Part shown: positions 7,805-23,797 of the stretch, one piece after another
Numbering within the stretch: position 1 is the first letter of the stretch
Layout: each line of letters opens with the position of its first letter
NCBI GenBank assembly: GCA_030167125.1
Contig: CP126531.1
Span: forward strand, 2,108,001-2,172,000
DNA: 64,000 nucleotides
Direction of reading: 5' to 3'
DNA from: Rhodanobacteraceae bacterium
GTDB lineage: Bacteria > Pseudomonadota > Gammaproteobacteria > Xanthomonadales > Rhodanobacteraceae
The notes under the pieces: generated by a model
The model's input: only the letters and a program-made list of their open reading frames with translations
Databases searched by the model: none
What the model was told of the DNA's origin: nothing
Position numbers and translations under genes: made by a program

Positions 7805-10228
7805 TCACTGCGTCAGCAACTGCATCTTCCCGATCGCCCACATGCCGTCGCGTGGATCGCCGGTGGCGAACACACACAACGTGTGATCGCCCCCGGCCGG
7901 CGGAATGTCGCTCGTCAACGTAGTCTGCAATGTCGTCTGCGTGGCTTTCGCCAGCGGCAGCGTAGCGAGCAACGGACCATCGCATGAATCGAGGTGAACC
8001 TGGAACTCGCCGGCGGGCGTGGCTTTCGGTCGCTTGACGACTTTCGCATCATCGGTCCACAACGCGAAGTTCCATGGCAGGTTGCCTACCGTCAGCGCGA
8101 TCCGCTTCACGTTATCGAGCGGTGCGTTCTTCCACAACCAGCACATGTTCTCGATGTCGATCTTGTAAACCGGACGCGGGCCATCGAGCGGACGATCGTC
8201 TTCCAGCCGCAACACGAGCTGGTTCTTGCAGGCATCGAGCTGGTCACTGTTGCGGGTGAGCAGCGCGGCCGTATCGACGGTTTGCGTGCGCGGCGCGGCA
8301 AGTTCGAACCCGTCGGCGGCAAACGTCGCGGCGCGCAACGTGGTGGTGGAATGCGCCAGGAACGACAGCGGCTTCGAATACATCGTCGACGCGGCGCTCG
8401 GCGCGGTGCCGTCGGTGGTATAGCGGATCGTGCCGAAATCCGTCTGGTTCGACAATGCGACATCGATGATCCCGTTCGCACCCTTCGACAACGCGAACGC
8501 CGGCGCAAACGCGCTGTCGGCATACGCGATGCCGAGCGCCTGGTAGCGCGCCAGTTCCGCGGGCATGCGATCGAGGAACGCACGCCAGTCGTGCGTCGAT
8601 GCCGGTGACCACGCCACTTCCGCCAGCGCCGCGATGCGCGGAAACACCGCGTGCTGGACGCGCGCGAAGGTCGGCATGTACTCCGCCCACAGGTTCGCCT
8701 GCACGCCCAGAATGTGCTTCGCCTCGGCCGTGGTCGCACCCGCGGGCACCGGGTCATAGTCGTAGACGTCCTTCAGTGACTCCACGCCGGGCCGTCCGGG
8801 CGGCTCGTCGTGCAGGTTCGATTGATAGTGATCGAGGTACAGCGTGGGCGATGAAGCCATCACCACGTCGTGGCCCTGCTTCAACGCATCGAGCGCGCCC
8901 GCGGGTTCGTGCCACGACATGATCACCGCCGACGCCGGCACGTCGCCATGCAGGATTTCATCCCAACCCACCGCGGTGCGTCCGTGTTGCGCCAGGTAAT
9001 TTGCAACCTGCGTGGTGAACCAGCCCTGCAACGCATCCATGTCCTTCAGGCCGAGCGCGTGCATGTGCACACGCACTGCGGGCGATGCCTGCCACTGGTC
9101 CTTGGCCGCTTCGTCGCCGCCGATGTGGATGTACTTCGACGGGAACAGCGCCATCACGTGGTCCATCACGGCGTCCACGAACTTCAGCGTGCGCGCGTCC
9201 GGCCGCAGCAGCCAGGTGTTGACGCCCCAATCGGTGCCGACCTGCGGCCGCTCGCCGGTAACGCCCAGCCATGGATACGACGCGATCGCCGCCTGCGCAT
9301 GGCCGGGAATGTCGATCTCCGGCACGATCTCGATGAAGCGCTGCGACGCGTAATGGACGATCTCGCGCACTTCCGCGTCCGTGTAAAAGCCGCAGTACGG
9401 CTTGTCCGGACTGCCGGTGAGTGCGGCGTCCGGACCCACGGCCTTGCGGCAGGCGCCGATCTTCGTGAGCTCGGGGTACTGCGGAACCGGCAGACGCCAG
9501 CCCTGGTCATCGGTGAGATGCCAGTGCAGCACATTCAATTTGTGCAGCGACATCCAGTCGATCAACTTCTCGATGTCGGCCGCGCTCTGGAAATGCCGCG
9601 CGGAATCCAGCATCAGGCCGCGCCAACGGAATCGCGGCCAGTCCTCGATATGCATCCTCGGAACCGACACTGATTTTTTATAGCCGGCCGGCTTTGCGAA
9701 GGCCGGCGTCAAAAGCTGCCAAAGCGTGACTCCACCGTAAAACAAGCCCGTCGGAGTACGCGCGCTTACGACAATGTCTCCTGCTTCTGTATCTAGAACG
9801 TAGCCCTCCGGATTATCGACCACAGCGTGTGGATCAAGCTCGAACACGATCGCTTGGGCTGGGGGTTTTTTCGCAAGGGTGACATTCAGTTTGAATGCGT
9901 CGCTTCGCGCCAAGCTGTCAACGAACTGGCGGGCAGCGAATACAGCCCCAAGATCTTTCGACGTAACAACCACGGGCGTGCCGGGCGATACCGAGTTAGC
10001 GCCGACATCTATAAAAGCAACGAGTGCTGGTCTCGGAGTGAGCCACAGCGTTGCCGCAAGCTTTTGCTGATCGGGTAGGGCCGCCATGTCCTGCCAAGAG
10101 AGCAGCTTGGCAACAGGCGCCTTCGACATCTGAACCGTTGGCTTTTGCGCACAAACGGTCGATGTGAAGACCAACATCAAAACTGCAATGCCGACGCGCC
10201 GCGCGCTTCTTTTTTGCCATCGCATCAT
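7805..10228 (-). CDS. Secreted GH20 beta-N-acetylhexosaminidase
   Basis: About 807 residues with a signal peptide (GIAVLMLVFTSTVCAQ), an N-terminal GH20b-like alpha/beta domain (to about 150), and a GH20 catalytic barrel. The barrel holds RGLMLDSARHF, LNVLHWHLTDDQGWRLP, PEIDIPGHAQA and the catalytic Asp-Glu pair in HIGGDEAAKDQW near residue 370. A C-terminal Ig-like region (TIRYTTDGTAPS) follows. It releases terminal GlcNAc from chitooligosaccharides or glycans in the periplasm or outside. The ATG at 10228 lies 29 bp after the GH9 gene on the same strand, so the two are probably cotranscribed. The first 190 codons (9661-10140) have about 56% GC by hand count, lower than the later part, which hints at a mosaic origin. 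Confidence 0.93.
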   Translation of the reverse strand: MMRWQKRSARRVGIAVLMLVFTSTVCAQKPTVQMSKAPVAKLLSWQDMAALPDQQKLAATLWLTPRPALVAFIDVGANSVSPGTPVVVTSKDLGAVFAARQFVDSLARSDAFKLNVTLAKKPPAQAIVFELDPHAVVDNPEGYVLDTEAGDIVVSARTPTGLFYGGVTLWQLLTPAFAKPAGYKKSVSVPRMHIEDWPRFRWRGLMLDSARHFQSAADIEKLIDWMSLHKLNVLHWHLTDDQGWRLPVPQYPELTKIGACRKAVGPDAALTGSPDKPYCGFYTDAEVREIVHYASQRFIEIVPEIDIPGHAQAAIASYPWLGVTGERPQVGTDWGVNTWLLRPDARTLKFVDAVMDHVMALFPSKYIHIGGDEAAKDQWQASPAVRVHMHALGLKDMDALQGWFTTQVANYLAQHGRTAVGWDEILHGDVPASAVIMSWHEPAGALDALKQGHDVVMASSPTLYLDHYQSNLHDEPPGRPGVESLKDVYDYDPVPAGATTAEAKHILGVQANLWAEYMPTFARVQHAVFPRIAALAEVAWSPASTHDWRAFLDRMPAELARYQALGIAYADSAFAPAFALSKGANGIIDVALSNQTDFGTIRYTTDGTAPSAASTMYSKPLSFLAHSTTTLRAATFAADGFELAAPRTQTVDTAALLTRNSDQLDACKNQLVLRLEDDRPLDGPRPVYKIDIENMCWLWKNAPLDNVKRIALTVGNLPWNFALWTDDAKVVKRPKATPAGEFQVHLDSCDGPLLATLPLAKATQTTLQTTLTSDIPPAGGDHTLCVFATGDPRDGMWAIGKMQLLTQ

Positions 10229-10257
10229 CGATCGAATCTCACGCAACGCTCTCAGAA

Positions 10258-12114
10258 TTAATTGTGCGGCAGGCTGATGGCATACATGTACCACGCCGCG
10301 TGCGGCAGCCACTGCTCGCCCCAGCGCCAGTCGTCGTCCTTGCCGGTTTGCGCGTAGCCGAGATCGAACGCGATGCCGTCGTCTTCCGCGTCGAGTCCCG
10401 AGGTGATGCCGTTGATGATCGCGCCGGGCGCGCTGGTGTATTCCCAGGAATCGAAGAACATGTACTGGATGTTGCGATGCCCGCTGCCGATCAGCATGCT
10501 GGTGTCGTAGGGGTTGCGCCCGAGGATCCAGTGCAGCTGGTTCCACGCGTAGTCCCGCAGCTTCGACTGGAACGCCGGATCGTCCGCGAACATCGGCGCG
10601 GCTACGCGCGCCGCGGCGGCCAGCGACGCAAGCCGCGCATCCTCGCCCTGCCACCAGGTTCCTTCCGCGCCGTGCGGGAAGAAGAACTTCACCGCGAGGG
10701 TGCCGTCCTTCAGGTGCACCAGCTCGCGCGCGTATCCGAACGGATTGTTGACATCGACGGTGATGCGCAACTGGAACGCCATCGAGCGGCGAATCGCGTC
10801 GCGCACTTCCTGTTTGCGCGCAGGCGTGGCAATCGAAGCGTATTCGGCCAACGCCACGACCGGCATGCCGTCGTCGGTGGCGTTGAAGAAGGGATCGGGA
10901 CCGTCATCGACACGCCAATAGTCGCGATGACCGTCGTGCGTGGTGAGCTTCGCCATCAGGCGATCCGCCCACGCGTCAGCGGCCGCGCGCCAAGGTTCCC
11001 CGTGGGTTGCGCGATACAGCTCCGTCGCTGCAAGCAGCGCGCAGAAATCATCGACGATGTCCGGCTTGCCGTCGGCCAGCAACTCGCGGTTGTGTTGCTG
11101 CAGATAGTGGAATGCATCCTCTGCGGCTTCGAGATATTGCCTGTTGGAAAAGGCGCCGTGATCCGGCAACGTGCTCGCGGCCGCCAGCGCAGCGATCGCC
11201 ATGCCGCCGCCGTTGCGGAAACTTGCTTCGTAATCGCGTGGCCACGCAGCGTTGCCCTCTTCGGCCGCGCCCGCGCTGCCGGGCGTGGTCTTGATGACCT
11301 GGCGGTAATTGGTCGGGTTGATCAGACGATCCTTCGCAAGCTTAAGCTTGCCGGGCGCGCCGATGCTTTCGTAAAACGAACCGCCGGGTACGTGCATGCG
11401 CACCAGGAAGTCGGCGCCGTAGGTCGCCTCGTCCAGCAGCCGCCGTTCGTATTGCGCGAAGTTCGGGTTGTGCGTGACTTCGAGATTGCGCAATGTCGCG
11501 ATGAGGCTCCACGCCACCAGCGACACTTCCTGATGATTGCCTTCGGCGAGATGCACACCATAGTCGCCGGTCGCGGCGAGCCAGCCGCCGCGAAGATCGA
11601 CGTAAGCGGGACCGGACGGATCGGGATTCTTCAGATGTGCATCGGCGCGCTCGAAATCGCCGGTGACGCGCTGGCCCTTGAAGTAGTAGATGACGTTCGA
11701 AAGCGTGTAGCGTTCCAGCACGTCGTCCGCGATGCGGAACGGAAACGAGAACGCATCGGCGTTGCCGCCGACGTCCACGCGATACGTGCCGGGCGTCTTC
11801 AGCGCGGAGAAGTCGATCGTCCAGTAACGCCAATCGTTCCAGTGATCGACCTGGCCCGCCGGCTTGGGTGAACCTCGCAGCATCGTTTTGCCGGTTGCGA
11901 CGTCGATGACCTTGAAGGTCGCGAAGCTGTCACCCGCGGAACCTTGCACGATTGCACGCTTCGGCGCCGCGGTGTCGTAGCCGACCTGATCGACCAGCAC
12001 TGACGGCGGCTGCGTCGCCGCGGATCGGGTCGCGCCTCCGGCAGCCCACGCTGGCACACCGGCGATCCACAACAGTCCGAACGCTGCCGATGCAAGGCGG
12101 CGAAATCCGCGCAT
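10258..12114 (-). CDS. GH9 family glycoside hydrolase, possible exo-beta-glucosaminidase
   Basis: A 618-residue secreted protein. It has a signal peptide (RLASAAFGLLWIAGVPAWA), an N-terminal Ig-like CelD_N domain (SVLVDQVGYDTAAPKRAIV) and a GH9 (alpha/alpha)6 barrel. Barrel motifs are RGGWLAATGDYGVH (the DAGD site), ILGRNPYDTSMLIGSGHRN (the His signature) and AEDDGIAFDLGYAQ (general-acid Glu). The second Asp of the DAGD site is kept, but the first position is Ala. GH9 contains cellulases and also exo-glucosaminidases in Vibrionaceae amino-sugar operons. The GH20, NagA and NagB neighbours favour a glucosamine or chitobiose substrate over cellulose (inference). The ATG at 12114 follows GGAG by 7 bases and gives a clean signal peptide. 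Confidence 0.85.
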   Translation of the reverse strand: MRGFRRLASAAFGLLWIAGVPAWAAGGATRSAATQPPSVLVDQVGYDTAAPKRAIVQGSAGDSFATFKVIDVATGKTMLRGSPKPAGQVDHWNDWRYWTIDFSALKTPGTYRVDVGGNADAFSFPFRIADDVLERYTLSNVIYYFKGQRVTGDFERADAHLKNPDPSGPAYVDLRGGWLAATGDYGVHLAEGNHQEVSLVAWSLIATLRNLEVTHNPNFAQYERRLLDEATYGADFLVRMHVPGGSFYESIGAPGKLKLAKDRLINPTNYRQVIKTTPGSAGAAEEGNAAWPRDYEASFRNGGGMAIAALAAASTLPDHGAFSNRQYLEAAEDAFHYLQQHNRELLADGKPDIVDDFCALLAATELYRATHGEPWRAAADAWADRLMAKLTTHDGHRDYWRVDDGPDPFFNATDDGMPVVALAEYASIATPARKQEVRDAIRRSMAFQLRITVDVNNPFGYARELVHLKDGTLAVKFFFPHGAEGTWWQGEDARLASLAAAARVAAPMFADDPAFQSKLRDYAWNQLHWILGRNPYDTSMLIGSGHRNIQYMFFDSWEYTSAPGAIINGITSGLDAEDDGIAFDLGYAQTGKDDDWRWGEQWLPHAAWYMYAISLPHN

Positions 12115-12153
12115 GCCGTTTCTCCGATCCGATCCTCGCACCCCGCGCGCCAA

Positions 12154-12187
12154 AAAAAACGGGCCGGGGATGCCATGCCGGCCCGCA
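12154..12187 (-). terminator. Rho-independent terminator after the receptor gene
   Basis: Read on the minus strand: a 7-bp perfect stem GGGCCGG/CCGGCCC (12180-12186 with 12163-12169), then G and a run of eight T (12154-12161). It lies about 120 bp past the TonB-dependent receptor stop and 40 bp before the GH9 start. It should end or attenuate the receptor transcript, so GH9-GH20 expression may depend on readthrough or on a separate promoter. A further hairpin with CCTCG and CGAGG ends precedes it. Confidence 0.85.
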
Positions 12188-12306
12188 ACGCTGGAGAGCG
12201 ACTCACTTCACTCCGATGAAACCCGGTTGCCCTCGACGCGTGCTTGCAACACGCGCCGAGGTTCGACTCGATGATGCCGATGGCATGCCGCCACGGCATC
12301 CCTTCA

Positions 12307-15300
12307 TTACTGCTGCGGTTGGCCTTGCTGGATGCCTTCGCCTCCGACCTTGAACTCGACGCGGCGGTTGCGCTGGCGTCCGGCCGCGGTCTTGTTGGTG
12401 TCGATCGGATCGGCTTCGCCGAAGCCCTTGACCGCGGTGATGCGGCTGGCCGCGATGCCGTGCGAAGTCAGGTACGCATCGACGATGTTGGCGCGACGCT
12501 CCGACAGCGCCTGGTTGTACTGCGCGCTGCCTGTCGAGTCGGTGTAGCCGTCGATCTCGACCTGCACCTGCGGATAACGGTTGAGCGTATCCACGGCCTG
12601 GCTGAGGATCGCGAGCGACTCCGACGCCGGCGGCTTCAGCGTCGGGTCGATGTTGGTCTCGCCCTTCTTAGGCCGGTCGAACTTGAAGTTCACGCCGCGC
12701 AGGTCGATCACCACGTTCTGCGGCGGCGGCGGCGGTGGCGCGGCCTCCGGTGCCGGCGGCGGAGGCGGCGTTGCCGGCGGCAACGGTGCGGGCGCTCCGC
12801 TGCCGAACTTGAAGTTCACGTTGAAGTAGTACTGGCGTCCGTTCACGTAGAACGCTTCCGGCGCGGTGCTGAAGCCAAGGCCGGCCTGCGAGCCATTGAT
12901 GAAGTACTTCAGGTGCGGGTTGTTGAGGTTCATCGCGTCGAACGAGAAGCTCAGGTGATCGTTGAGCTTGTAGCCCGCGGAGAACGACAGGTAGCCCTGC
13001 CCCGACTGCCAGTACGGCAACAGCGCCATCTGGCCTGTGCTGGACATCACGCCATCGTAGAACTTGGAGCGGTAGGTGTAGTTGACGCGGGCGTTCCAGT
13101 GCGCGTCTTCGTAGAAGACCGATGCGTTGGCCGTGTTCTTGGACGTGCCGAACAGCGGGCGATCGCCGGCGGCGACGTTGTTGGCCAGCGTGCCGTCCGC
13201 GTTGTACATGTAGGTGCCGCCCGACGAATGGCCCGTCGCGTAGGTGTAATTGAACGACACGCCGAAGTGGTCACCGATCGGCTGGATGTAGTTCAAGGTC
13301 ACGCCCTTCAACGTGCCGTTGACGTTCACCGGGATGCTGACCAGGTAGTTGCTGTAAATCGGCGCTCCCGACGGGTTGGTCGTCTTGTTGTAGGTCAGGA
13401 GATTGTTGAGGTAGGTGCGGGTGACCGTTCCGTAGTCGTAGTAGTTGTTGAGATCCATCGCGTACACGCTGCCCGCCAACAAGCCGCGCGGCGCGAAATA
13501 CCATTCCAGCGAGGCCGAGAAGTTGGTGGACAGGATCGGCTTCAGGCGCGGGTTGGAGCCGCTGCCGCCGCCGAGTTCGGTGGCGACCGTTGGATCATTG
13601 AGACTCAAGAAGCCCGCCAACTGGGTGTAATCCTGGCGGGTCAGCGTCTGCGATGCCGACCACCGCGTCAGCAGGCTGCCGTCGGAATTGAGGTCGAACT
13701 TCACGTTGAAGCTCGGCAGCACCTTGTTGTAGTTGTGCTTGTAGTAGTTCCAGTACCAGCCGCCCGGGTAAAACGCGGAGGGCGGCGAGCCGACCGCATA
13801 GCTAGCTTCCTGGATACCGGGACTGGTGTAACCGATGTTCTCGTCGGTGGACACGTAGCGCAGGCCGGCGTTCGCGGTCCAGTGTTCGCCCGTGAAGTTG
13901 GCCTGGATGTACGCCGCGCCGTTCTTCTCCGTCATGCTGTAGATGCCGTTCGGATAGAAGCGCGAGGTGCCGGGGTCGTCCGTCACCTTGCGATTCGCAT
14001 ACAGCGCGTTCAACTGCGCGAGCTGCGCCGGCGTCCAGAACCAGATGTCGGAAGGCATCTGGCCCACGCCGAGGTCGCTGGCGAAGCTGCCCGGATAGTT
14101 GCCGCCCGCCGGAGGATAGATCGTGGAGTTCTGTCCGAACTGCACGGCCGATGCGAAGTTCGGACCCTGCGCGATATCTGTCGGGCTGTCGTGATCGTGC
14201 TTGGCGTAGCGCACGCCGAACTCGAGTGAGGACAACGGACCGGCATTGTCGAAATCGTAGGTGCCGTCGGCCTGGAACCAGCGCTCCTTGTCGACCACGT
14301 GGATGTTCTGTTCGCCGAAGATCCAGTCCAGCCCGGCGGTCGCGGGATCGAACGCGTTGTTGGTGCCGCTCATGCTCCAGTTGAGCGGCGTACCCAGCCC
14401 GTTCATCGCGTAGCTGGCGGTCGAGCCAAAACCGGTGTCCATCTCCATCACGTCCTGGGTCGGCGTGTTGCCGGTGCCCTTGGTCGTGCCGATCTGGAAC
14501 TTGAAGCCGAGGTTGTTGGTGGCTTGCCAATCCGCGTCCAGCGTGACGAACTGGCTGGACTCGCTCTCGCCCGGACGCGAGATCATGTCGTAGATGCCTT
14601 GCGAAATCAGCGGCTCGCCGGGCGCGGCACCGGGCAGGTTGGCGCTGGTGAGGATGTTGCCCACGATGGTGCCGGTCACGGCCTGCTTGGGCAGCTGGTC
14701 GCGCGTGCGCAACATGTAGTTGCGGTTGTAGTCGGTCGCGTCGAGGTGCGAATAGAACGCGTCAAGGTTGAAGGTGAGGTTGTCGGTCGCCTTCCACTGC
14801 AGGTCGACCGAACCGCCCTCGCGCTTGCGCGTTTGCGTGAACAGCGCTGCGCCTGGGAGATTGGGATAGAACACGCCTGTGCTTGCGCTGCCCGGCGTCG
14901 CGGCAGACAGACCGAGCGATAGGGCGGCTGGTGAACCGGTTGGAATGTACGAATAGCCGAGCAGTTCCTGCCCTTCGCGCTGCAGGTCGCGTTTCTCGTA
15001 AAAGGCCTGAACCATCACGCCGAACGTACTGGACGCGTTTTTCCAGTTCAGCAGTCCACTGGCCTGCGGCGTGGTCTTTCCGGGCAGGTCGGCGTAAACG
15101 CCGCCCACGCTGCCTTCGAGCGAAAGCTGCTGGCTGAAATCCAGCGGCTTGCGGGTGATGATGTCGATTGTGCCGGCCGCGCCGCCTTCCAGAAGCTTGG
15201 CTTCCGGCGTCATGTGCACGACGACCTGGTTGACGACTTCCGACGGCAGCATCGCGAAGCTGACGCTGCGCGTGCCGCCGCCCCCCAGCACGAACCAGTC

Positions 15301-15756
15301 GCCTGATCCGATCGAGTGGCCGTTTACGGTGGTCAGTGTCAACGACGGCGCGCTGCCGCGGATGCTGGCGCGATCGGCTTCGTCGAAACCGCCTTCGGCA
15401 CCCGCGGCGTCGGCGATGTTGACGCCCGGCAATTGCGCGATGGTGTCGGCGACGTTCTTGGCCGGCAGCTTGCCGATGTCGACCGCGGAGACCACTTCGA
15501 CCTGCGAATTGGCGGCCTTCTTGGTTTCGATCGACAGCGCCTGCGCGGCGCGCACGCCGACCACCTGGATGGTCTCCAGTTGCTGGACGGTGTCCTTTTT
15601 CTTCTGCGTGGAATCCGTCTGCGTCCCCGCACCAGCCTGTGGCTGTTGCTGGTCATTGGATTGTCCCTGAGGCGAGGCGTTCTGCGCCTGGGCAGCTGCT
15701 GCGAACAACAGCGCCGTGGCGATGCTCGCCGAAAGCATGCTCTTGCGGAATTTCAT
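12307..15756 (-). CDS. TonB-dependent receptor fused to a C-terminal OmpA peptidoglycan-binding domain
   Basis: 1149 residues in four parts: signal peptide (ASIATALLFAAAAQA); a TonB-box-like LETIQVVG and plug domain (KLPAKNVADTIAQLPGVNI, ASIRGSAPSLTLTTVNG); a large 22-strand-type barrel ending near residue 984 in the aromatic strand YYFNVNFKF; then a proline-rich linker (PATPPPPPAPEAAPPPPPP) and an OmpA-like domain from about 1010. That domain has DGYTDSTGS, LSERRANIVDAYL and GRQRNRRVEF, which keep the Asp and Arg known to bind diaminopimelate in OmpA. A normal receptor stops at the aromatic strand. The tail is about 87% identical by eye to the OmpA at 22631-23797. Context suggests uptake of GlcNAc oligomers. 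ATG 15756 follows AAGGGG; the gene is 67 bp after the sugar kinase. Confidence 0.95.
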   Translation of the reverse strand: MKFRKSMLSASIATALLFAAAAQAQNASPQGQSNDQQQPQAGAGTQTDSTQKKKDTVQQLETIQVVGVRAAQALSIETKKAANSQVEVVSAVDIGKLPAKNVADTIAQLPGVNIADAAGAEGGFDEADRASIRGSAPSLTLTTVNGHSIGSGDWFVLGGGGTRSVSFAMLPSEVVNQVVVHMTPEAKLLEGGAAGTIDIITRKPLDFSQQLSLEGSVGGVYADLPGKTTPQASGLLNWKNASSTFGVMVQAFYEKRDLQREGQELLGYSYIPTGSPAALSLGLSAATPGSASTGVFYPNLPGAALFTQTRKREGGSVDLQWKATDNLTFNLDAFYSHLDATDYNRNYMLRTRDQLPKQAVTGTIVGNILTSANLPGAAPGEPLISQGIYDMISRPGESESSQFVTLDADWQATNNLGFKFQIGTTKGTGNTPTQDVMEMDTGFGSTASYAMNGLGTPLNWSMSGTNNAFDPATAGLDWIFGEQNIHVVDKERWFQADGTYDFDNAGPLSSLEFGVRYAKHDHDSPTDIAQGPNFASAVQFGQNSTIYPPAGGNYPGSFASDLGVGQMPSDIWFWTPAQLAQLNALYANRKVTDDPGTSRFYPNGIYSMTEKNGAAYIQANFTGEHWTANAGLRYVSTDENIGYTSPGIQEASYAVGSPPSAFYPGGWYWNYYKHNYNKVLPSFNVKFDLNSDGSLLTRWSASQTLTRQDYTQLAGFLSLNDPTVATELGGGSGSNPRLKPILSTNFSASLEWYFAPRGLLAGSVYAMDLNNYYDYGTVTRTYLNNLLTYNKTTNPSGAPIYSNYLVSIPVNVNGTLKGVTLNYIQPIGDHFGVSFNYTYATGHSSGGTYMYNADGTLANNVAAGDRPLFGTSKNTANASVFYEDAHWNARVNYTYRSKFYDGVMSSTGQMALLPYWQSGQGYLSFSAGYKLNDHLSFSFDAMNLNNPHLKYFINGSQAGLGFSTAPEAFYVNGRQYYFNVNFKFGSGAPAPLPPATPPPPPAPEAAPPPPPPQNVVIDLRGVNFKFDRPKKGETNIDPTLKPPASESLAILSQAVDTLNRYPQVQVEIDGYTDSTGSAQYNQALSERRANIVDAYLTSHGIAASRITAVKGFGEADPIDTNKTAAGRQRNRRVEFKVGGEGIQQGQPQQ

Positions 15757-15823: not shown

Positions 15824-16885
15824 TTACGCCGCGGTGCCGTCTCCCATCGCGCGGCGGCGCACGGAACCGCGCATGTGCTTTTCGAAATACCAATGCGCCG
15901 CGCCCATGACGCCGTGGCGGCCGTGCTCGATCAGGCGCACCGGCACGCGCAGCAGGAATTCGCGCATGCCGCCCTTGCCGAGGCAGCGCTCCACGAAGCG
16001 GCTGCGCTGCAACAGCTTGCGCATTTCGGGCAGGACGCCGCCGGCCAGGTACACGCCGCCATCCGCCATGAACGCCATGGCGAGATTGCCGACGAAACTG
16101 CCGAGCGCGGCGCAGAACACGTCGACCGCTTCGACCGCATCTTCATCGCTGCCCGCGCAGGCCGCAGCGGTCACCGCCTCGGGTGTCGCGAGCCGCGGCT
16201 GCTTTCCCCGCAGTGCGCACAACGTGGTGTACAGCGTGAGCAGACCGGGCCCCGAGAGGATGCGCTCGTACGGCACGTAGCCGCCGTCGGGCGCCAGATA
16301 AGCCAGCACTTCGCGTTCGCGCGCGTTGCCAGGCGCGAAATCCATTTGTCCCGCCTCGCTTGCGAGCACGCGCACGCAGGCCGGGCCGGGCAGGCGCACA
16401 GCCGCACCCAACCCGGTGCCCGGTCCCACCACCAGCGCGGGACCCTCCCCGCACGTTTCGGGACCGCACAGCAACAAGCTGTCGGTGTCCTTCACGTCAT
16501 CGAGGGCGTAACCGAGCGCTTCGAAATCGTTGAGCAGCGCGACATCGTCGAAGGCCAGCGCTTCGCGCAATTGCGACAGGCTGACGCGCCACGCCAGGTT
16601 GTCGTTGACGATCGCGTCGTCGATGACCTGCCCTGCGCAGGCAATCACGCAACGCCGCACCGGCAGCGTGGCATCGCCCTCGACGAATGCGGTCAGCAGT
16701 TCCGGCAGCCCAGCGAAATCCGCGCAGGTGAACTTGCGATAAGCCAGCACTTCGAACTCGCGCTTGCCGTCGGTGGCCGCGCGCATCAACGCAACCCGCG
16801 CATGGGTCCCGCCCACGTCCGCAGCCAGGAACGGCTGCGTGTGCAGGCTGACGTGCTGGGTCAAATGACTGGCGGCCACACTCAT
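15824..16885 (-). CDS. nagK: Glucokinase-family sugar kinase, probable N-acetylglucosamine kinase
   Basis: About 353 residues of the bacterial Glk fold. Motifs: phosphate-1 loop FLAADVGGTHARVALM, the NDFEALGYAL segment with the catalytic Asp, GPGTGLGAAV, and AGGVLPEM near the end. It would phosphorylate GlcNAc (or glucose) entering through NagP; placement in the nag locus favours GlcNAc but the sequence alone does not exclude glucose. ATG 16885 is preferred. A further ATG at 16924 would add 13 residues but directly adjoins the operator palindrome at 16928-16941, whose TTGACA could be the -35 element of this gene's promoter. TonB-dependent receptor gene follows on the same strand. Confidence 0.85.
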   Translation of the reverse strand: MSVAASHLTQHVSLHTQPFLAADVGGTHARVALMRAATDGKREFEVLAYRKFTCADFAGLPELLTAFVEGDATLPVRRCVIACAGQVIDDAIVNDNLAWRVSLSQLREALAFDDVALLNDFEALGYALDDVKDTDSLLLCGPETCGEGPALVVGPGTGLGAAVRLPGPACVRVLASEAGQMDFAPGNAREREVLAYLAPDGGYVPYERILSGPGLLTLYTTLCALRGKQPRLATPEAVTAAACAGSDEDAVEAVDVFCAALGSFVGNLAMAFMADGGVYLAGGVLPEMRKLLQRSRFVERCLGKGGMREFLLRVPVRLIEHGRHGVMGAAHWYFEKHMRGSVRRRAMGDGTAA

Positions 16886-16927
16886 CCTGCGCTCGGGCGA
16901 TTCGGATGGCGCAAGTTTGGTCATGGC

Positions 16928-16941
16928 TGACAACGTTGTCA
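16928..16941. promoter_or_regulatory. Perfect palindrome, probable NagR (LacI-type) operator
   Basis: TGACAACGTTGTCA is a perfect 14-bp palindrome with the central CG typical of LacI-family operators. It lies 42 bp before the preferred kinase start, in the divergent region between the kinase and nagP. On the minus strand it contains TTGACA, a consensus -35 hexamer, so a bound repressor would block the promoter. The regulator is presumably NagR, encoded at 18516-19538. Confidence 0.8.
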
Positions 16942-17107
16942 ATTTGCGATGCAGCAATCCGGAAGGGCCGTAGCCGGACCGCGCAAAGTCAATCGGAATG
17001 GGGCCCTCGGGCATTCATGCATGTTGCGTCGCACCAAAGCCGCGCCGTTGCGGGGGCGCTGTTTTTCGGCAGGCAGGACATGCGATACTCGACCCAGGAC
17101 ACGGATA

Positions 17108-17121: not shown

Positions 17122-17161
17122 ACCCCATAATCCCCATCGCCACACCCGCACAGGCTTGCCC

Positions 17162-18475
17162 ATGACCAACAACGCAACCGCAGCGCAGCCGTCGCATTAC
17201 GTGATGTCGATGGTGATCATCGGCGTCCTGTTCTTCATCTTCGGATTCGTCACCTGGCTCAACTCGTCGTTGATCCTGTTCGTCAAGGTCGGGTTCGACG
17301 TGGACAACGTCGGCGCGTTCCTGATTCCGATGGCGTTCTATTTGTCCTACTTCTTCCTTGCGCTGCCTTCGGCCGTGGTGCTGAAGCGCACCGGCATGAA
17401 AAAGGGCATGGCCCTGGGCCTGCTGGTGATGGCGATCGGCTCCGTGTTGTTCGCCTTCTTCATGGGCGGCTACAGCTACGTCGGCGCGCTGGTGGCGCTG
17501 TTCGTGATCGGCGCCGGCCTGGCGTTGTTGCAGACGGCATCCAACCCGTACGTGAGCATCCTCGGCCCGATCGAGAGCGGCGCCAAGCGCGTGGCGATCA
17601 TGGGAATCTGCAACAAGTTCGCGGGCGGCATTGCGCCGTACGTGTTCGGCGCGCTGCTGCTGAGCGGCGCTGCCGCCTACGCCGACAAGATCAAGGCCGC
17701 GGCTTCGCCTGCGGCGCGCTCGGTGCTGCAGCACGCGTTCGTATCGCGCGCCGTCATGCCTTATGTCGTCATGGCGGTGGTGTTGGCACTGCTGGCGGTG
17801 TGGATCGTGTTTTCCTCGCTGCCGGACATCAAACCAGCGAACGAGCGTCAGGAACTGCGAAGCAACACCCACCAGCGCAGCATCTTCAGCTTTCCGCACC
17901 TGTGGCTGGGCGTGGTGTGCCTTTTCATTTACGTGGGCCTCGAGGTGATGGTCGGTGACGGCATCGTGATCTACGGCCAGGCATCGGGGCTGTCGCTGGA
18001 CACCGCCAAGCACCTGACGTCGTGGGTCATGATCGGGATGCTGATCGGCTATCTGGCGGGCGTCGTCCTGACGCCACGGGTGATCTCGCAGCAGCGCTAC
18101 CTCGCGATTTCGGCGGTGCTGGGCGTACTGTTCGCGGTCGGCGCATGGCAGACGCACGGCACGCTGTCGGTCGGCTTCGTCGCGGCGCTGGGATTCGCGA
18201 ACGCGATGATGTGGCCGGCCATCTTCCCGCTGGCCATCAAGGGCCTCGGCGATCGCACCGAGTTCGGCTCGGCGCTGCTGATCATGGGCATCGCCGGCGG
18301 CGCGTTGATCCCGCAACTCTTCGTGCACCTCGAGGAAGTCATCAACTTCCAGTTGGCCTTCGTGCTGGTGATGGTGCCCGGCTACATCTACATTCTGTTC
18401 TATGGATTGCTGGGTCATCGCGCCGGACAACCGGCGCGCGAGGCGGCAATCGATTCCGCCGCCGTGGCGCCTTGA
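17162..18475 (+). CDS. nagP: NagP-type N-acetylglucosamine MFS transporter
   Basis: A 437-residue inner-membrane protein of the major facilitator superfamily (FGHS/FucP type), with about 12 hydrophobic segments. Family features: an opening segment IIGVLFFIFGFVTWLNSSLI, the QTASNPYVSILGP motif near residue 125, and GICNKFAGGIAPYVFGA. In Shewanella and Xanthomonas such transporters (NagP) bring GlcNAc into the cytoplasm. ATG 17162 follows AGG by 8 bases; an in-frame TTG two codons earlier is possible. First gene of the plus-strand nagP-nagR-nagB-nagA run. Related fucose or glucose/galactose symporters are the alternative, but context favours GlcNAc. Confidence 0.9.
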   Translation: MTNNATAAQPSHYVMSMVIIGVLFFIFGFVTWLNSSLILFVKVGFDVDNVGAFLIPMAFYLSYFFLALPSAVVLKRTGMKKGMALGLLVMAIGSVLFAFFMGGYSYVGALVALFVIGAGLALLQTASNPYVSILGPIESGAKRVAIMGICNKFAGGIAPYVFGALLLSGAAAYADKIKAAASPAARSVLQHAFVSRAVMPYVVMAVVLALLAVWIVFSSLPDIKPANERQELRSNTHQRSIFSFPHLWLGVVCLFIYVGLEVMVGDGIVIYGQASGLSLDTAKHLTSWVMIGMLIGYLAGVVLTPRVISQQRYLAISAVLGVLFAVGAWQTHGTLSVGFVAALGFANAMMWPAIFPLAIKGLGDRTEFGSALLIMGIAGGALIPQLFVHLEEVINFQLAFVLVMVPGYIYILFYGLLGHRAGQPAREAAIDSAAVAP

Positions 18476-18515
18476 CCGCGCGTACTGCACCGGCAAGCAC
18501 CACAAGGAGCCGCAC

Positions 18516-19538
18516 TTGGGAACCGCCACCATCCGGGATGTCGCAAGGCAAGCCAAGGTTTCGCTGAAAACCGTTTCGCGCGTCATCAACCGGGAAAGCT
18601 CGGTGCGCGACGAAACGCGCGAGCGCGTGATGCGCGCGATCGAACAACTCGACTACCGTCCCGACCTTTCCGCGCGCAGCCTGCGCAGCGCCAAGGCGTA
18701 CGCCATCGGCCTGGTGTACGACAACCCGAACCCGTACTACATCATCGCGGTGCAGCAGGGCGCGCTGGCGGCGTGCCGCGAGATGGGTTTCGGTTTGCAG
18801 ATCCACCCGTGCGATTCGCGCGCGACGAAACTCGCGGAAGAATTGCGCGACCTCGTGCACCGTTCGCGCCTCGCCGGCCTGGTGCTGTTGCCGCCAATGT
18901 CCGAGCGCATGGCGCTGCTGCGCGAACTGGCCGCCTACAGCATCCCGCTGGTACGCGTGATTTCGGCGGCCGAGGATCCGCACGACGGCTTTCCGTGCGT
19001 GTTCGTGGACGACCGCGATGCCGCCTACGCGATCACCGCTTATCTGATCCAGCTCGGCCACGAGCGCATCGGTTTCCTGTGGGGCGGCAAGCAGCACCGT
19101 TCCAGTCCCGAGCGCTACAAGGGTTACGAAAAAGCGCTGCAGGATTACGGCGTGCCGATGTCGGACGAACTGGTGCTGGAGGGCGACTATTCGTTCGACG
19201 ACGGTTTTCGCGGCGCGCGCCGGTTGCTCGGACTGGCCGAACCGCCCACCGCGATCTTCGGTTCGAATGACGAAATCGCCGCGGGCGTGCTCGCCGCTGC
19301 GCGCGCGGCAGGCCTGCACGTGCCCTACGACTTGTCGGTCGCGGGATTCGAGGACAGTCCGTTCTCGCGCCATTCGTGGCCTTCGCTCACCACTTCGCGG
19401 CAGCGCACCGAATTGATCGCCGAACATGCCGCGCGGCTTTTGATTGCGCAGATCCACGGCGGCGACGTCGAGAACGAGGGCTTCAGTCCCGAACTGGTGG
19501 TGCGCGGTTCGACCGCACCGCCGCGGCCGAAGGCGTGA
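18516..19538 (+). CDS. nagR: LacI-family regulator of the GlcNAc locus (TTG start)
   Basis: A 340-residue LacI/GalR repressor. The N-terminal helix-turn-helix with hinge (TIRDVARQAKVSLKTVSRVI, then YRPDLSARSL) is followed by a periplasmic-binding-protein-like effector domain (TAIFGSNDEIAAGVLAAARA, LSVAGFEDSPFSR). TTG 18516 is chosen because AAGGAG lies 6 bases before it and no ATG fits. It sits between nagP and nagB and should bind the palindromes at 16928-16941 and 17108-17121. In Xanthomonas and Shewanella relatives, NagR represses the GlcNAc regulon and responds to a GlcNAc metabolite; which one applies here is unknown. Confidence 0.92.
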   Translation: MGTATIRDVARQAKVSLKTVSRVINRESSVRDETRERVMRAIEQLDYRPDLSARSLRSAKAYAIGLVYDNPNPYYIIAVQQGALAACREMGFGLQIHPCDSRATKLAEELRDLVHRSRLAGLVLLPPMSERMALLRELAAYSIPLVRVISAAEDPHDGFPCVFVDDRDAAYAITAYLIQLGHERIGFLWGGKQHRSSPERYKGYEKALQDYGVPMSDELVLEGDYSFDDGFRGARRLLGLAEPPTAIFGSNDEIAAGVLAAARAAGLHVPYDLSVAGFEDSPFSRHSWPSLTTSRQRTELIAEHAARLLIAQIHGGDVENEGFSPELVVRGSTAPPRPKA

Positions 19539-19545
19539 TGGCCGC

Positions 19546-20589
19546 ATGTCTGCCGAGATGAAAGCCGAAGCCACGCTGCTGCACCGCGAAGCCGCCGAAG
19601 CCGCCGACACGGTGGCGCGGCAACTCGAGCGCAACGACGCGGCCGTGTGCAAACTCGCGGCCAGCTTGCGCGACCACGCGCCGCCGTTCGTGGCCACCTG
19701 CGCACGCGGCAGTTCGGATCATGCGGCGACTTACGCGAAATACGTCATCGAGACGCAGACCGGCTGCGTCACTGCATCGGCTTCGCCATCGGTCGAATCG
19801 ATTTATTCGGTGCCGCTGCGGTTGCGAGACGCTTTGTATCTCGTCATTTCGCAGTCGGGCGCCAGTCCTGATCTCTTGCGCAGCGCCGAAGCTGCGCGCA
19901 ATGCGGGTGCACGCGTGGTCGCGCTGGTCAACGCGGAACATTCGCCGCTGGCGGCGCTGGCCGACACCGTGATCCCGCTGCAAGCGGGACCCGAAAAAAG
20001 CGTGGCGGCCACCAAGAGTTTCATCGGATCGCTGGGCGCGGTGCTGCACCTGGTCGCGCACTGGCGGCAGGACGTGGCGCTGCTCGATGCCTTGCACGGA
20101 TTGCCGGAACAATTGCGCCAAGCGTTCGAGCTTGACTGGTCGGCGCTGGTCGAAGGGCTGCGCGACATGCACGATCTGTTCGTGCTGGGACGGGGCTATG
20201 GATTGGCGGCAGCGCAGGAAGCCGCGCTGAAATTGAAGGAAACCTGCGCGCTGCACGCGGAAGCCTTCAGCAGTGCCGAAGTGCGGCACGGCCCGATGGA
20301 ATTGGTGGGTCCACGCCTGCCGGTACTGTTGTTCGCGCAACAGGACGACGCGTTGCCGGGCGTCATGGCCACCGCGCGCGACTTCCACCAGCGCGGCGCC
20401 GAGGTCTGGACCGCCGCGCCGGGCGCGGTGGGCCGCGATGCACTGCCAATCGTCCCGACGAGTCAGCCCATGCTGGCGCCGATCCTGGCAATACAAAGCT
20501 TCTATCGTGCGGTGAACGCACTCGCCATCGCGCGCGGCCGCGACCCCGACCGTCCGCCGCATCTCGCCAAAGTCACCGAGACCGTTTGA
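19546..20589 (+). CDS. nagB: SIS-domain glucosamine-6-phosphate deaminase (NagB-II type)
   Basis: A 347-residue protein with two SIS domains and no glutaminase domain, the NagB-II class that replaces classic NagB in many proteobacteria. Signatures: CARGSSDHAATYAKYVIE, SQSGASPDLLR, ALKLKETCALHAEAFSSAE, RHGPMELV and the C-terminal DPDRPPHLAKVTETV. It converts glucosamine-6-phosphate to fructose-6-phosphate and ammonia after NagA. ATG 19546 begins 7 bp after the nagR stop; ATG 19558 is an alternative. The stop overlaps the nagA start (TGATG), so the two are translationally coupled. A short GlmS-like aminotransferase is ruled out by the missing N-terminal glutaminase domain. Confidence 0.92.
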   Translation: MSAEMKAEATLLHREAAEAADTVARQLERNDAAVCKLAASLRDHAPPFVATCARGSSDHAATYAKYVIETQTGCVTASASPSVESIYSVPLRLRDALYLVISQSGASPDLLRSAEAARNAGARVVALVNAEHSPLAALADTVIPLQAGPEKSVAATKSFIGSLGAVLHLVAHWRQDVALLDALHGLPEQLRQAFELDWSALVEGLRDMHDLFVLGRGYGLAAAQEAALKLKETCALHAEAFSSAEVRHGPMELVGPRLPVLLFAQQDDALPGVMATARDFHQRGAEVWTAAPGAVGRDALPIVPTSQPMLAPILAIQSFYRAVNALAIARGRDPDRPPHLAKVTETV

Positions 20590-21725
20590 TGTCCGTCGCG
20601 CTGGCCAATGCACGCGTGCTTTCGTCGCAAGGTTGGCGCGACGACGCCGCGGTGATCGTCGAAGGCGGCCGCATCGTGGAACTCGCGACACGCGTCCCGC
20701 CTGATGCCGAGGTCCACGATCTGTCGGGGCAAATACTGCTGCCCGGTTTCATCGATTGCCAGGTCAACGGCGGCGGCGGCGTGCTGTTCAACGACCAGCC
20801 GACCGTCGAAGGCATCCGCGCCATCGGCGCCGCGCACCGGCGCTTCGGCACTACGGGTTTCCTGCCGACCCTGATCAGCGACACCACCGGCAAGATGCGC
20901 GCCGCGATCGCGGCGGTCGATGACGCACTCGCCAAAGGTGTTCCCGGCGTGCTGGGCATCCATCTCGAAGGCCCGTTCATCAGCCGTGGGCGCAAGGGCG
21001 TGCATGCGGAACGATACCTGCACGCGCCGGACGCATCCGAACTGCGGCTGGCCGAATCGCTGCACCGTGGCGTGACGCTGCTGACCCTGGCGCCCGAATG
21101 CGTATCGCCCGGTGCGATCCGCGATCTCGCCGATGCAGGCGTGATCGTCAGCGCGGGCCATTCCGATGCCGATTACGCGACCACGCGCGCAGCGCTGGAT
21201 GCGGGCGTGCGCGGCTTCACCCATCTCTACAACGCGATGTCGCCGCTGACCAGCCGTGCACCGGGTGTCGTCGGTACGGCTCTGGATGATCCTGATTCCT
21301 GGTGCGGCGTGATCGTCGATGGCCACCACGCCGCCGCGGCCAGCCTGCGCGTGGCGCTGAAGGCCAAACCGCGCGGCAAGCTTTTCCTGGTCACCGATGC
21401 GATGCCGCCCGTGGGTGCGCTCGATCCGTCCTACGTATTGAACGGCGAAACGATCATCGCGCGTGACGGCATTTGCCAGACCGCCGCGGGTACGCTCGCC
21501 GGTTCCGCGCTCAGCATGATCGACGCCATGCGCAACAGCATCGACATGCTCGGCGTGCCGCTGGACGAAGCCGCGCGGATGGCGTCGACGTATCCCGCCG
21601 ATTTCCTCGGTCTGGATCGAACCCACGGACGCATCGAAACGGGTTTCCGCGCCGACTTCACCGTGGTCGACCCGTCTCTGCAGGTCGTCGAAACCTGGAT
21701 CGGCGGCGTCCGCGAGGCCGCGTAG
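20589..21725 (+). CDS. nagA: N-acetylglucosamine-6-phosphate deacetylase
   Basis: A 378-residue amidohydrolase-superfamily enzyme that removes acetate from GlcNAc-6-phosphate. It shows GFIDCQVNGGGGVLFND (like the E. coli QLNGCGG site), the metal-ligand glutamate region GIHLEGPFISRGRKGVH, SAGHSDADY and THLYNAMSP histidines, and LVTDAMPPVG with the catalytic Asp. The start ATG overlaps the nagB stop by one base. It is the last gene of the plus-strand nag operon and converges with the pseudouridine synthase gene. Length matches E. coli NagA (382). Confidence 0.96.
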   Translation: MSVALANARVLSSQGWRDDAAVIVEGGRIVELATRVPPDAEVHDLSGQILLPGFIDCQVNGGGGVLFNDQPTVEGIRAIGAAHRRFGTTGFLPTLISDTTGKMRAAIAAVDDALAKGVPGVLGIHLEGPFISRGRKGVHAERYLHAPDASELRLAESLHRGVTLLTLAPECVSPGAIRDLADAGVIVSAGHSDADYATTRAALDAGVRGFTHLYNAMSPLTSRAPGVVGTALDDPDSWCGVIVDGHHAAAASLRVALKAKPRGKLFLVTDAMPPVGALDPSYVLNGETIIARDGICQTAAGTLAGSALSMIDAMRNSIDMLGVPLDEAARMASTYPADFLGLDRTHGRIETGFRADFTVVDPSLQVVETWIGGVREAA

Positions 21726-22630: not shown

Positions 22631-23797
22631 TTACATGCTGCCGCTCTGGGGCTGCTGCACCTTGAACTCGACGCGACGGTTGCGCTGACGGCCAGCCGCG
22701 GTCTTGTTGGTGTCGACCGGATCGGCCTTGCCGAAGCCCTTGACCGCGGTGATGCGGCTCGCGTCGATGCCATGCGACGTCAGGTACTGGTCGACGATGT
22801 TGGCGCGACGCTCGGAGAGGCCCTGGTTGTACTTGTCAGTGCCGATCGAATCGGTGTAGCCATCGATCTCGATCGTGACCTGCGGGTAGCGGTTCAAGGT
22901 GTCGACCGCCTGGTTGAGGATCGCGATCGAATCGGACGCCGGCGGCTTCAACGTCGGGCCGATGTTGTGCTCACCCTTCTTCGGACGATCGAACTTGAAG
23001 TTCACGCCACGCAGGTCGATGACCACATTCTGCGGCGGCGGCGGCGGCGGAGCTGCCGGCGGCGGCGGCGGCGGGGCTGCCGGCGGCGGCGGCGGGGCTG
23101 CATGACCCATGTTGATCACCAGACCGATGGTCGCCATCGAGTCCAGCCACTGCTTCGGACCGTAGGTGTGCGGCAGGCCCGGACCGGCGAACCCGGCCAG
23201 CTGTGCCGACTTCGTGTCACGGTAGTAACGTGCCGCGATTTCGCCACGCAGGGCGACGCGATCGCTGACGTTGTACAGCACGCCCACGCCAACCGTGGCA
23301 CCCGGACCCCAGCCAGAACCATTTTGAGGACCCATGTTGCCGAACGCGCCACCGGCTTGGGCGAGCTCGCCGGAAACGGCAGCGTGACGCCACATGCCGA
23401 CGCCGCCCATCAAGAACGGACGCCACTGCGACGACGGATCCATGAAGTAGTAGCGGGCCGCCACGTCGACGCCCAGCGTTTCCCACTGCTTGCCGGCGCG
23501 GATGGAGGAATCCTTGTAGTCCGCATTGTCGCCGGTCGCTTCCACATCCAGCGTGAAGTGCGGGTTCACCCAGAAACCAACACCGAGGCCGCCCATGGGA
23601 GCTGGCTGGACTTGGCGGCTGCTGTCGCCGAACACCACGCCGATGCGGGGCACGATGTACCAGTTGCTGTAGTTCGGGCTCGCAAAGCTACCCGTTGTTT
23701 CCGCCGCTGCACCCGTGTCCTGTGCGTGCGCGACCGACATCACGCCTACAGTACCCAAGGCCAGCGCGATGACCGCGAACAAGCCGTTACGTTTCAT
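22631..23797 (-). CDS. ompA: OmpA-family outer-membrane protein
   Basis: 388 residues: signal peptide (AVIALALGTVGVMSVAHA), an 8-strand-type OmpA barrel to about residue 232 (YFMDPSSQWRPFLMGGVGM, ALRGEIAARYY), a proline-rich linker of repeated PPPPPPAA units (about 233-256), and a C-terminal OmpA/MotB domain. The domain carries DGYTDSIGTDKYN and LSERRANIVDQYL with the peptidoglycan-binding Asp and Arg. It anchors the outer membrane to the wall. The linker plus domain is nearly the same as the tail of the TonB-dependent receptor at 12307-15756. A single gene with its own terminator; the upstream 190 bp are AT-rich near 23940-23955, where its promoter probably lies. Confidence 0.95.
   Translation of the reverse strand: MKRNGLFAVIALALGTVGVMSVAHAQDTGAAAETTGSFASPNYSNWYIVPRIGVVFGDSSRQVQPAPMGGLGVGFWVNPHFTLDVEATGDNADYKDSSIRAGKQWETLGVDVAARYYFMDPSSQWRPFLMGGVGMWRHAAVSGELAQAGGAFGNMGPQNGSGWGPGATVGVGVLYNVSDRVALRGEIAARYYRDTKSAQLAGFAGPGLPHTYGPKQWLDSMATIGLVINMGHAAPPPPPAAPPPPPPAAPPPPPPQNVVIDLRGVNFKFDRPKKGEHNIGPTLKPPASDSIAILNQAVDTLNRYPQVTIEIDGYTDSIGTDKYNQGLSERRANIVDQYLTSHGIDASRITAVKGFGKADPVDTNKTAAGRQRNRRVEFKVQQPQSGSM

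Follow-up and report, generated by a model that had tools for sequence, protein, structure and literature searches.

In this window, the whole 64,000-nucleotide stretch of DNA analysed, a TonB-dependent receptor that is complete in its plug and barrel continues in the same frame through a proline-rich linker into an OmpA-type peptidoglycan-binding domain. The same architecture recurs in related genomes, the family that donated the domain is represented by a gene nearby, and the tail is under purifying selection with its wall-binding residues retained. From this we infer, with a probability of roughly 0.6, a receptor for N-acetylglucosamine (GlcNAc) or chitin-type substrates whose ompA-derived tail would tether it to the cell wall, keep it in the envelope and supply extra links between outer membrane and wall. 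All coordinates without another label refer to the window.

A receptor with an OmpA domain behind its barrel

The 1149-residue frame is unbroken in translation of the minus strand, from the ATG at 15756 to the stop at 12307. Its parts, with two structures downstream, are as follows:

12307..15756, minus strand: gene of the fused protein, a TonB-dependent receptor joined to an OmpA domain (1149 aa; translation, domain profiles)
15682..15756, minus strand: putative signal peptide-like N terminus, residues 1-25, MKFRKSMLSASIATALLFAAAAQAQ (from sequence alone)
12805..15579, minus strand: TonB plug and beta barrel, residues 60-984 (whole TIGR01782 model, E 6.6e-168)
12718..12804, minus strand: proline-rich linker, residues 985-1013 (sequence; low-confidence region of the model; aligns with the ompA linker)
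12343..12717, minus strand: OmpA peptidoglycan-binding domain, residues 1014-1138 (PF00691 at 1039-1131)
12273..12300, minus strand: hairpin directly 3' of the stop
12152..12184, minus strand: GC-rich stem-loop followed by T8, terminator-like

Pfam, TIGR01782 and the unbroken frame agree on the order that the initial annotation had given, a receptor barrel followed by a proline-rich linker and an OmpA domain. Pfam places Plug at residues 79-195 (1.2e-12), TonB_dep_Rec at 455-944 (4.7e-23) and OmpA at 1039-1131 (5e-20). The plug and barrel profiles both score above their cut-offs, which places the protein among the TonB-dependent receptors, and PF00691 reaches 72.1 bits in the tail against a curated cut-off of 27.2. 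TIGR01782 matches residues 60-984 over all 868 model positions, with 560.7 bits against a cut-off of 310; because the family model is covered over its full length, nothing of the receptor is missing ahead of the tail. A candidate TonB box, LETIQVV, is visible by eye at about residue 60, where the plug-and-barrel region begins. At the other end, the aromatic final strand NVNFKF of the barrel stops at residue 984 and 165 residues follow it, among them a linker with 16 prolines in 32 residues (985-1016), which sets the protein apart from TIGR01782 receptors, in which the barrel forms the C-terminal end. The main part of the protein is a receptor of known type, to which a domain has been added. 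It lacks the small 8-strand barrel of OmpA, its own being of the TonB-receptor type; it is not an OmpA, though its tethering may be of the OmpA kind.

The AlphaFold2 model of the whole protein, of moderate confidence (mean pLDDT 66.6, pTM 0.67), resembles the TonB receptors PfeA, PirA and FepA in the PDB; the barrel alone gives zero matches against PDB sequences. The model places the last barrel strand at residues 975-985, a low-confidence stretch at 986-1012, and the strand-helix-strand-helix-strand-strand order of OmpA-type domains at 1014-1138. Modelled alone, again with moderate confidence (mean pLDDT 63.2), the tail is matched by Foldseek to OmpA-like domains with a probability of 1.00 (best E 3e-06), including 3td4 (Acinetobacter baumannii OmpA with diaminopimelate), OprF and PA0833. 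The complete family match and the positions of the strands suggest that the barrel closes ahead of the linker, a point on which the prediction agrees with the earlier description.

The GlcNAc-use locus and the neighbouring ompA gene

Two features of the surroundings had escaped the initial annotation: the receptor sits among genes for GlcNAc use, and the donor gene lies inside the same window. The genes are:

7805..10654, minus strand: GH20 beta-hexosaminidase, its true start inside the given frame (PF00728)
10258..12153, minus strand: GH9 family glycoside hydrolase (PF00759)
15824..17014, minus strand: glucokinase-family gene (glk), upstream of the receptor (PF02685; order conserved)
17156..18475, plus strand: NagP-like MFS sugar transporter (TIGR01272 above cut-off; NagP_SO3503 below cut-off)
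18402..19538, plus strand: LacI-family regulator (PF00356)
19444..20589, plus strand: NagB-II-like glucosamine-6-phosphate deaminase (NF046059, below curated cut-off)
20586..21725, plus strand: NagA, N-acetylglucosamine-6-phosphate deacetylase (TIGR00221 above cut-off)
22631..23797, minus strand: OmpA-type gene, 388 aa (barrel PF13505, proline-rich linker, PF00691), source family of the tail

The genes for glk, the receptor, GH9 and GH20 share one strand, and those for the NagP-like transporter, the LacI regulator, the NagB-II-like enzyme and NagA share the other. This catabolic cluster is conserved around the receptor in related genera, and since the neighbours are GlcNAc-use genes, they suggest that the substrate is probably GlcNAc or chitin oligosaccharides. 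The ompA gene flanks the locus only within the genus; it was not found in the flanks fetched for L007, L009, L010, L018 and L021.

The tail and the C-terminal domain of the OmpA in the window are 87% identical in protein over 127 residues. Their genes, which lie on the same strand, share 300 nt at 85% and a further 67 nt of linker at 75%, in direct orientation and about 10.31 kb apart, and two such blocks argue that the resemblance is not chance. In L006, L008, L024 and L058 the ompA gene adjoins an unfused receptor, and in L006, L008, L024 and G015 it occupies the equivalent place while the receptor stops at the barrel. Sequence comparison shows that the tail derives from the C-terminal half of the ompA gene nearby, and by inference a duplicate of the 3' part of that gene became attached behind the last receptor strand. 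In effect, OmpA would have exchanged its 8-strand barrel for that of a TonB receptor beside the GlcNAc-use cluster. In the fused receptor and OmpA alike, the linker junction comes directly after the last barrel strand, which may explain why barrel assembly tolerates the addition.

The 3' end of the gene fits this origin. The terminator-like stem-loop (CTCTCCAGCGTTGCGGGCC...) is common to fused and unfused receptor genes; its occurrence behind unfused relatives makes it older than the tail, and its sharing by both forms indicates that the tail entered behind the last strand, ahead of a 3' end that was already there. A simple promoter and terminator scan returned nothing beyond chance and did not pick up this stem-loop either.

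Distribution and maintenance of the tail

Species of the genus differ in whether they carry the tail, a variation that the initial annotation had missed. Among 16 genomes of the genus the receptor is found in 11, fused in four and unfused in seven (G014 is a partial match). The fused copies L003, L004 and L005 come from the genomes that the search of the genus designated G005, G003 and G012. In a maximum-likelihood tree of plug and barrel the fused genes do not group together, and well-supported branches force at least three changes of state. The fused copies nevertheless have in common several features that the donor lacks: a linker that starts with GS and has similar Pro/Ala motifs, the C-terminal EGI(E/Q)QGQ and a Val at domain site 52. 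The hairpin just 3' of the stop also unites the window gene with L003 and L004, which have a comparable one, and by eye none was seen after the genes of unfused relatives or the donor ompA. Shared features of this kind, with no counterpart in the donor, point to one origin.

The unfused genes suggest the direction of change. L006, L008 and L024 retain AAGCTCTGATCC at the gene end, and the more distant L009, L016 and L019 end in KL followed by the stop and TCC; the likeness of these ends makes them look ancestral, not products of deletion. A single gain followed by recombinational replacement of 3' ends fits best, and we rank it above the alternative of repeated gains. A tree of the 123-residue OmpA domain, a short alignment, resolved the tails neither by receptor nor by genome.

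Two minor observations concern the gene itself. The post-stop hairpin is stable in the window gene, L003 and L004. In DNA, codons 1-80 of the receptor (15517-15756) share 91% identity with L005 and only 63-77% with other relatives; in the mid-part of the gene, identity to L005 is about 80%. Such a mosaic suggests that gene ends have been exchanged between species.

Among fused copies of this first receptor, dN/dS is 0.11-0.28 for the OmpA domain and 0.12-0.25 for the barrel, and no intact fused copy has a stop or a disrupted frame. The dS values of tail and barrel are 0.39 versus 0.46 (window and L003), 0.63 versus 0.63 (window and L004) and 0.60 versus 0.60 (L003 and L004). Given a tail dS so close to that of the barrel and a low dN/dS, the tail is of about the same age as the split between the fused genes and has been maintained.

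G003 has, in addition, another receptor with Plug, barrel and PF00691 (L051:3687-6944, minus strand), which is 35% identical to the first. It lies about 12 kb away, in a duplicated glk/receptor/GH9 module with its own glk and GH9. The same tail on two different receptors indicates a cassette that is not bound to one receptor. The signal peptide and terminator of the second receptor resemble those of the first, whereas its Dyella orthologues carry different 3' ends; the second gene may therefore have acquired its ends by copying from the first. The other 51 family matches listed for it (44 of 117 genomes match) all end ahead of the tail.

Outside the genus, the tail was absent from the orthologues sampled, 27 family matches in one search and 24 from family and order in another. 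Across 233 family genomes, the tail-like matches listed outside the genus (down to about 6e-50) all lie in frames whose length falls far below that of a receptor. The matches listed for 37 order genomes and 36 phylum genomes contained no further fusion of receptor and OmpA domain; in this survey, which stayed within the phylum, frames from about 870 residues upwards were read, together with a sampling of frames near 800. The best matches listed in a plasmid search end at the barrel.

Several long frames were set aside. A 1064-aa open frame with PF00691 (G001:C15) is MotB plus an upstream open frame and not a fusion. The long PF00691 frames of the order, in G235, G029, G265, G019, G258, G245 and G264, include no TonB receptor; they are porin-OmpA-repeat proteins, open frames or masked sequence. 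Separately, at G213:C1:3597624-3598097 a tail-like OmpA domain lies within an open frame of 673 aa, where the family norm is 370-450 aa, and that genome has two tandem copies of it.

Proposed wall tethering, known systems and alternatives

Two residues of the tail bear on wall binding:

12538..12540, minus strand: Asp1073, equivalent of the diaminopimelate-binding Asp271 of A. baumannii OmpA (spacing and motif)
12493..12495, minus strand: Arg1088, equivalent of the diaminopimelate-binding Arg286 of A. baumannii OmpA (spacing and motif)

In A. baumannii OmpA, Asp271 and Arg286 bind diaminopimelate (PMC5974059). Their equivalents here are likewise 15 residues apart, which bears out the earlier statement that the Asp and Arg are kept, and both positions are invariant in all 14 aligned domain copies that cover the pair. 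Together with homology and purifying selection, these residues lend good support, at the level of sequence, to the wall anchoring that had been proposed, and the domain should bind the cell wall.

A mechanism can be outlined from these properties. The barrel would close normally and the flexible proline-rich linker would carry the OmpA domain in the periplasm, where it would bind the diaminopimelate of peptidoglycan and act as a tether in cis. Every receptor made would then double as a link between outer membrane and wall. Tethered receptors would stay in the envelope instead of leaving in vesicles, and when the receptor is abundant the added links would keep up envelope attachment. Published work on other systems bears on these consequences. 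E. coli OmpA without its wall-binding domain shows no rise in lateral mobility (PMC3637615), which opposes lateral immobilisation and weakens the initial suggestion that the tail holds the receptor in place, so that the first interpretation stands in part. The same kind of truncation raises the packaging of OmpA into outer-membrane vesicles (PMC8284480), and Bordetella vesicles are depleted of the wall-bound OmpA-like protein RmpM and of a porin (PMC8610307); on these grounds we favour retention in the envelope together with the added links.

Several known systems resemble the protein in part. OmpA and OprF have the same order of barrel, proline-rich linker and periplasmic PF00691, and the tail derives from such a neighbour gene; their own barrel is small and 8-stranded, whereas that of the fused protein is a large, plugged TonB-dependent receptor. 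The Xanthomonas/Caulobacter-type receptors of GlcNAc-use loci are represented by TIGR01782, whose whole model the protein matches, and their loci conserve the order glk, NagP, LacI, NagB, NagA, GH20, as here; outside the genus, the last strand is where the sampled orthologues stop, and the fused receptor runs 165 residues further. RmpM of Neisseria and Bordetella, whose structure 1r1m is matched by the tail, likewise links an outer-membrane barrel to the wall through an OmpA-type domain (PMC8610307), but it is a separate protein acting in trans, while here the domain is within the receptor chain. OmpM of Veillonella, a porin with a periplasmic stalk, combines nutrient entry and wall tethering in one chain (PMC10628300), as is proposed here, but its channel is a trimeric porin, passive in transport, and its wall-binding stalk is of another kind; the protein here is a TonB-dependent receptor that has an OmpA domain at its C terminus. 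TpgA (NF047726, a weak match on the tail), compared by family name only, pairs an OmpA-type domain with another outer-membrane protein, the trimeric autotransporter, and is a separate protein that serves an adhesin and not a nutrient receptor.

Both component families are already known, and none of the papers searched describes their combination; UniProt or InterPro may already list it. We suggest tentatively, at somewhat less than even odds, that wall-tethered TonB-dependent receptors form a new architectural class, in which an OmpA cassette carried by at least two receptors of the genus unites uptake and attachment in one chain and the anchor varies among close species. These species hold the same receptor with and without the putative anchor, a natural experiment whose alleles allow tests of anchoring on vesicle loss, envelope strength, uptake and response to TonB force. 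The gene also illustrates how an outer-membrane protein can gain a post-barrel periplasmic domain through duplication of part of a neighbouring gene, joined at the proline-rich linker.

The wall tether has to be weighed against other accounts of the tail. It might place or brace the receptor for energy transduction, near TonB-ExbBD or against TonB's inward pull. The OmpA domain is on the periplasmic side, where TonB acts, and a literature on force-coupled transport exists (PMC5413942). This role is nonetheless unlikely, since the unchanged mobility of truncated OmpA (PMC3637615) argues that anchoring is not required to hold outer-membrane proteins, and unfused orthologues manage without the tail. 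The domain might instead serve mainly as an interaction module, for oligomerisation or for contacts with OmpA or other envelope proteins, as the firm association of RmpM with porins (PMC8610307) and its reported occurrence with the BAM complex (PMC2797634) would allow. Interaction alone, however, would not need the Asp/Arg pair and surrounding motif that are invariant here, and the porin-binding part of RmpM is thought to be N-terminal and not the OmpA domain (PMC8610307), which makes this improbable as the main function.

A near-neutral fusion, in which recombination between neighbours added a tolerated domain of little effect, would explain a tail that occurs in only four of 11 genomes and is scattered on the barrel tree. 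Two points also count against the favoured tether itself: seven of the 11 receptor-bearing genomes do without the tail, so it is dispensable for the basic receptor role, and fused genomes keep a normal ompA, so the added tethering may matter little. Against a near-neutral fusion stand a dN/dS well under 1 across dS of 0.4-0.6, intact frames and the recurrence of the tail on a second receptor, so that neutrality, too, has little likelihood beside the favoured wall tether. The data refute a frameshift or assembly error that fused two genes: a nearby donor could in principle produce a mis-join, but neither fault was found in the single-contig source genome, the tail is under purifying selection and differs from the donor at 15% of bases and so is not a copy of donor reads, and the identical junction in one frame recurs in the independent assemblies of L003, L004 and L005, the last of which ends at its contig end inside the tail.
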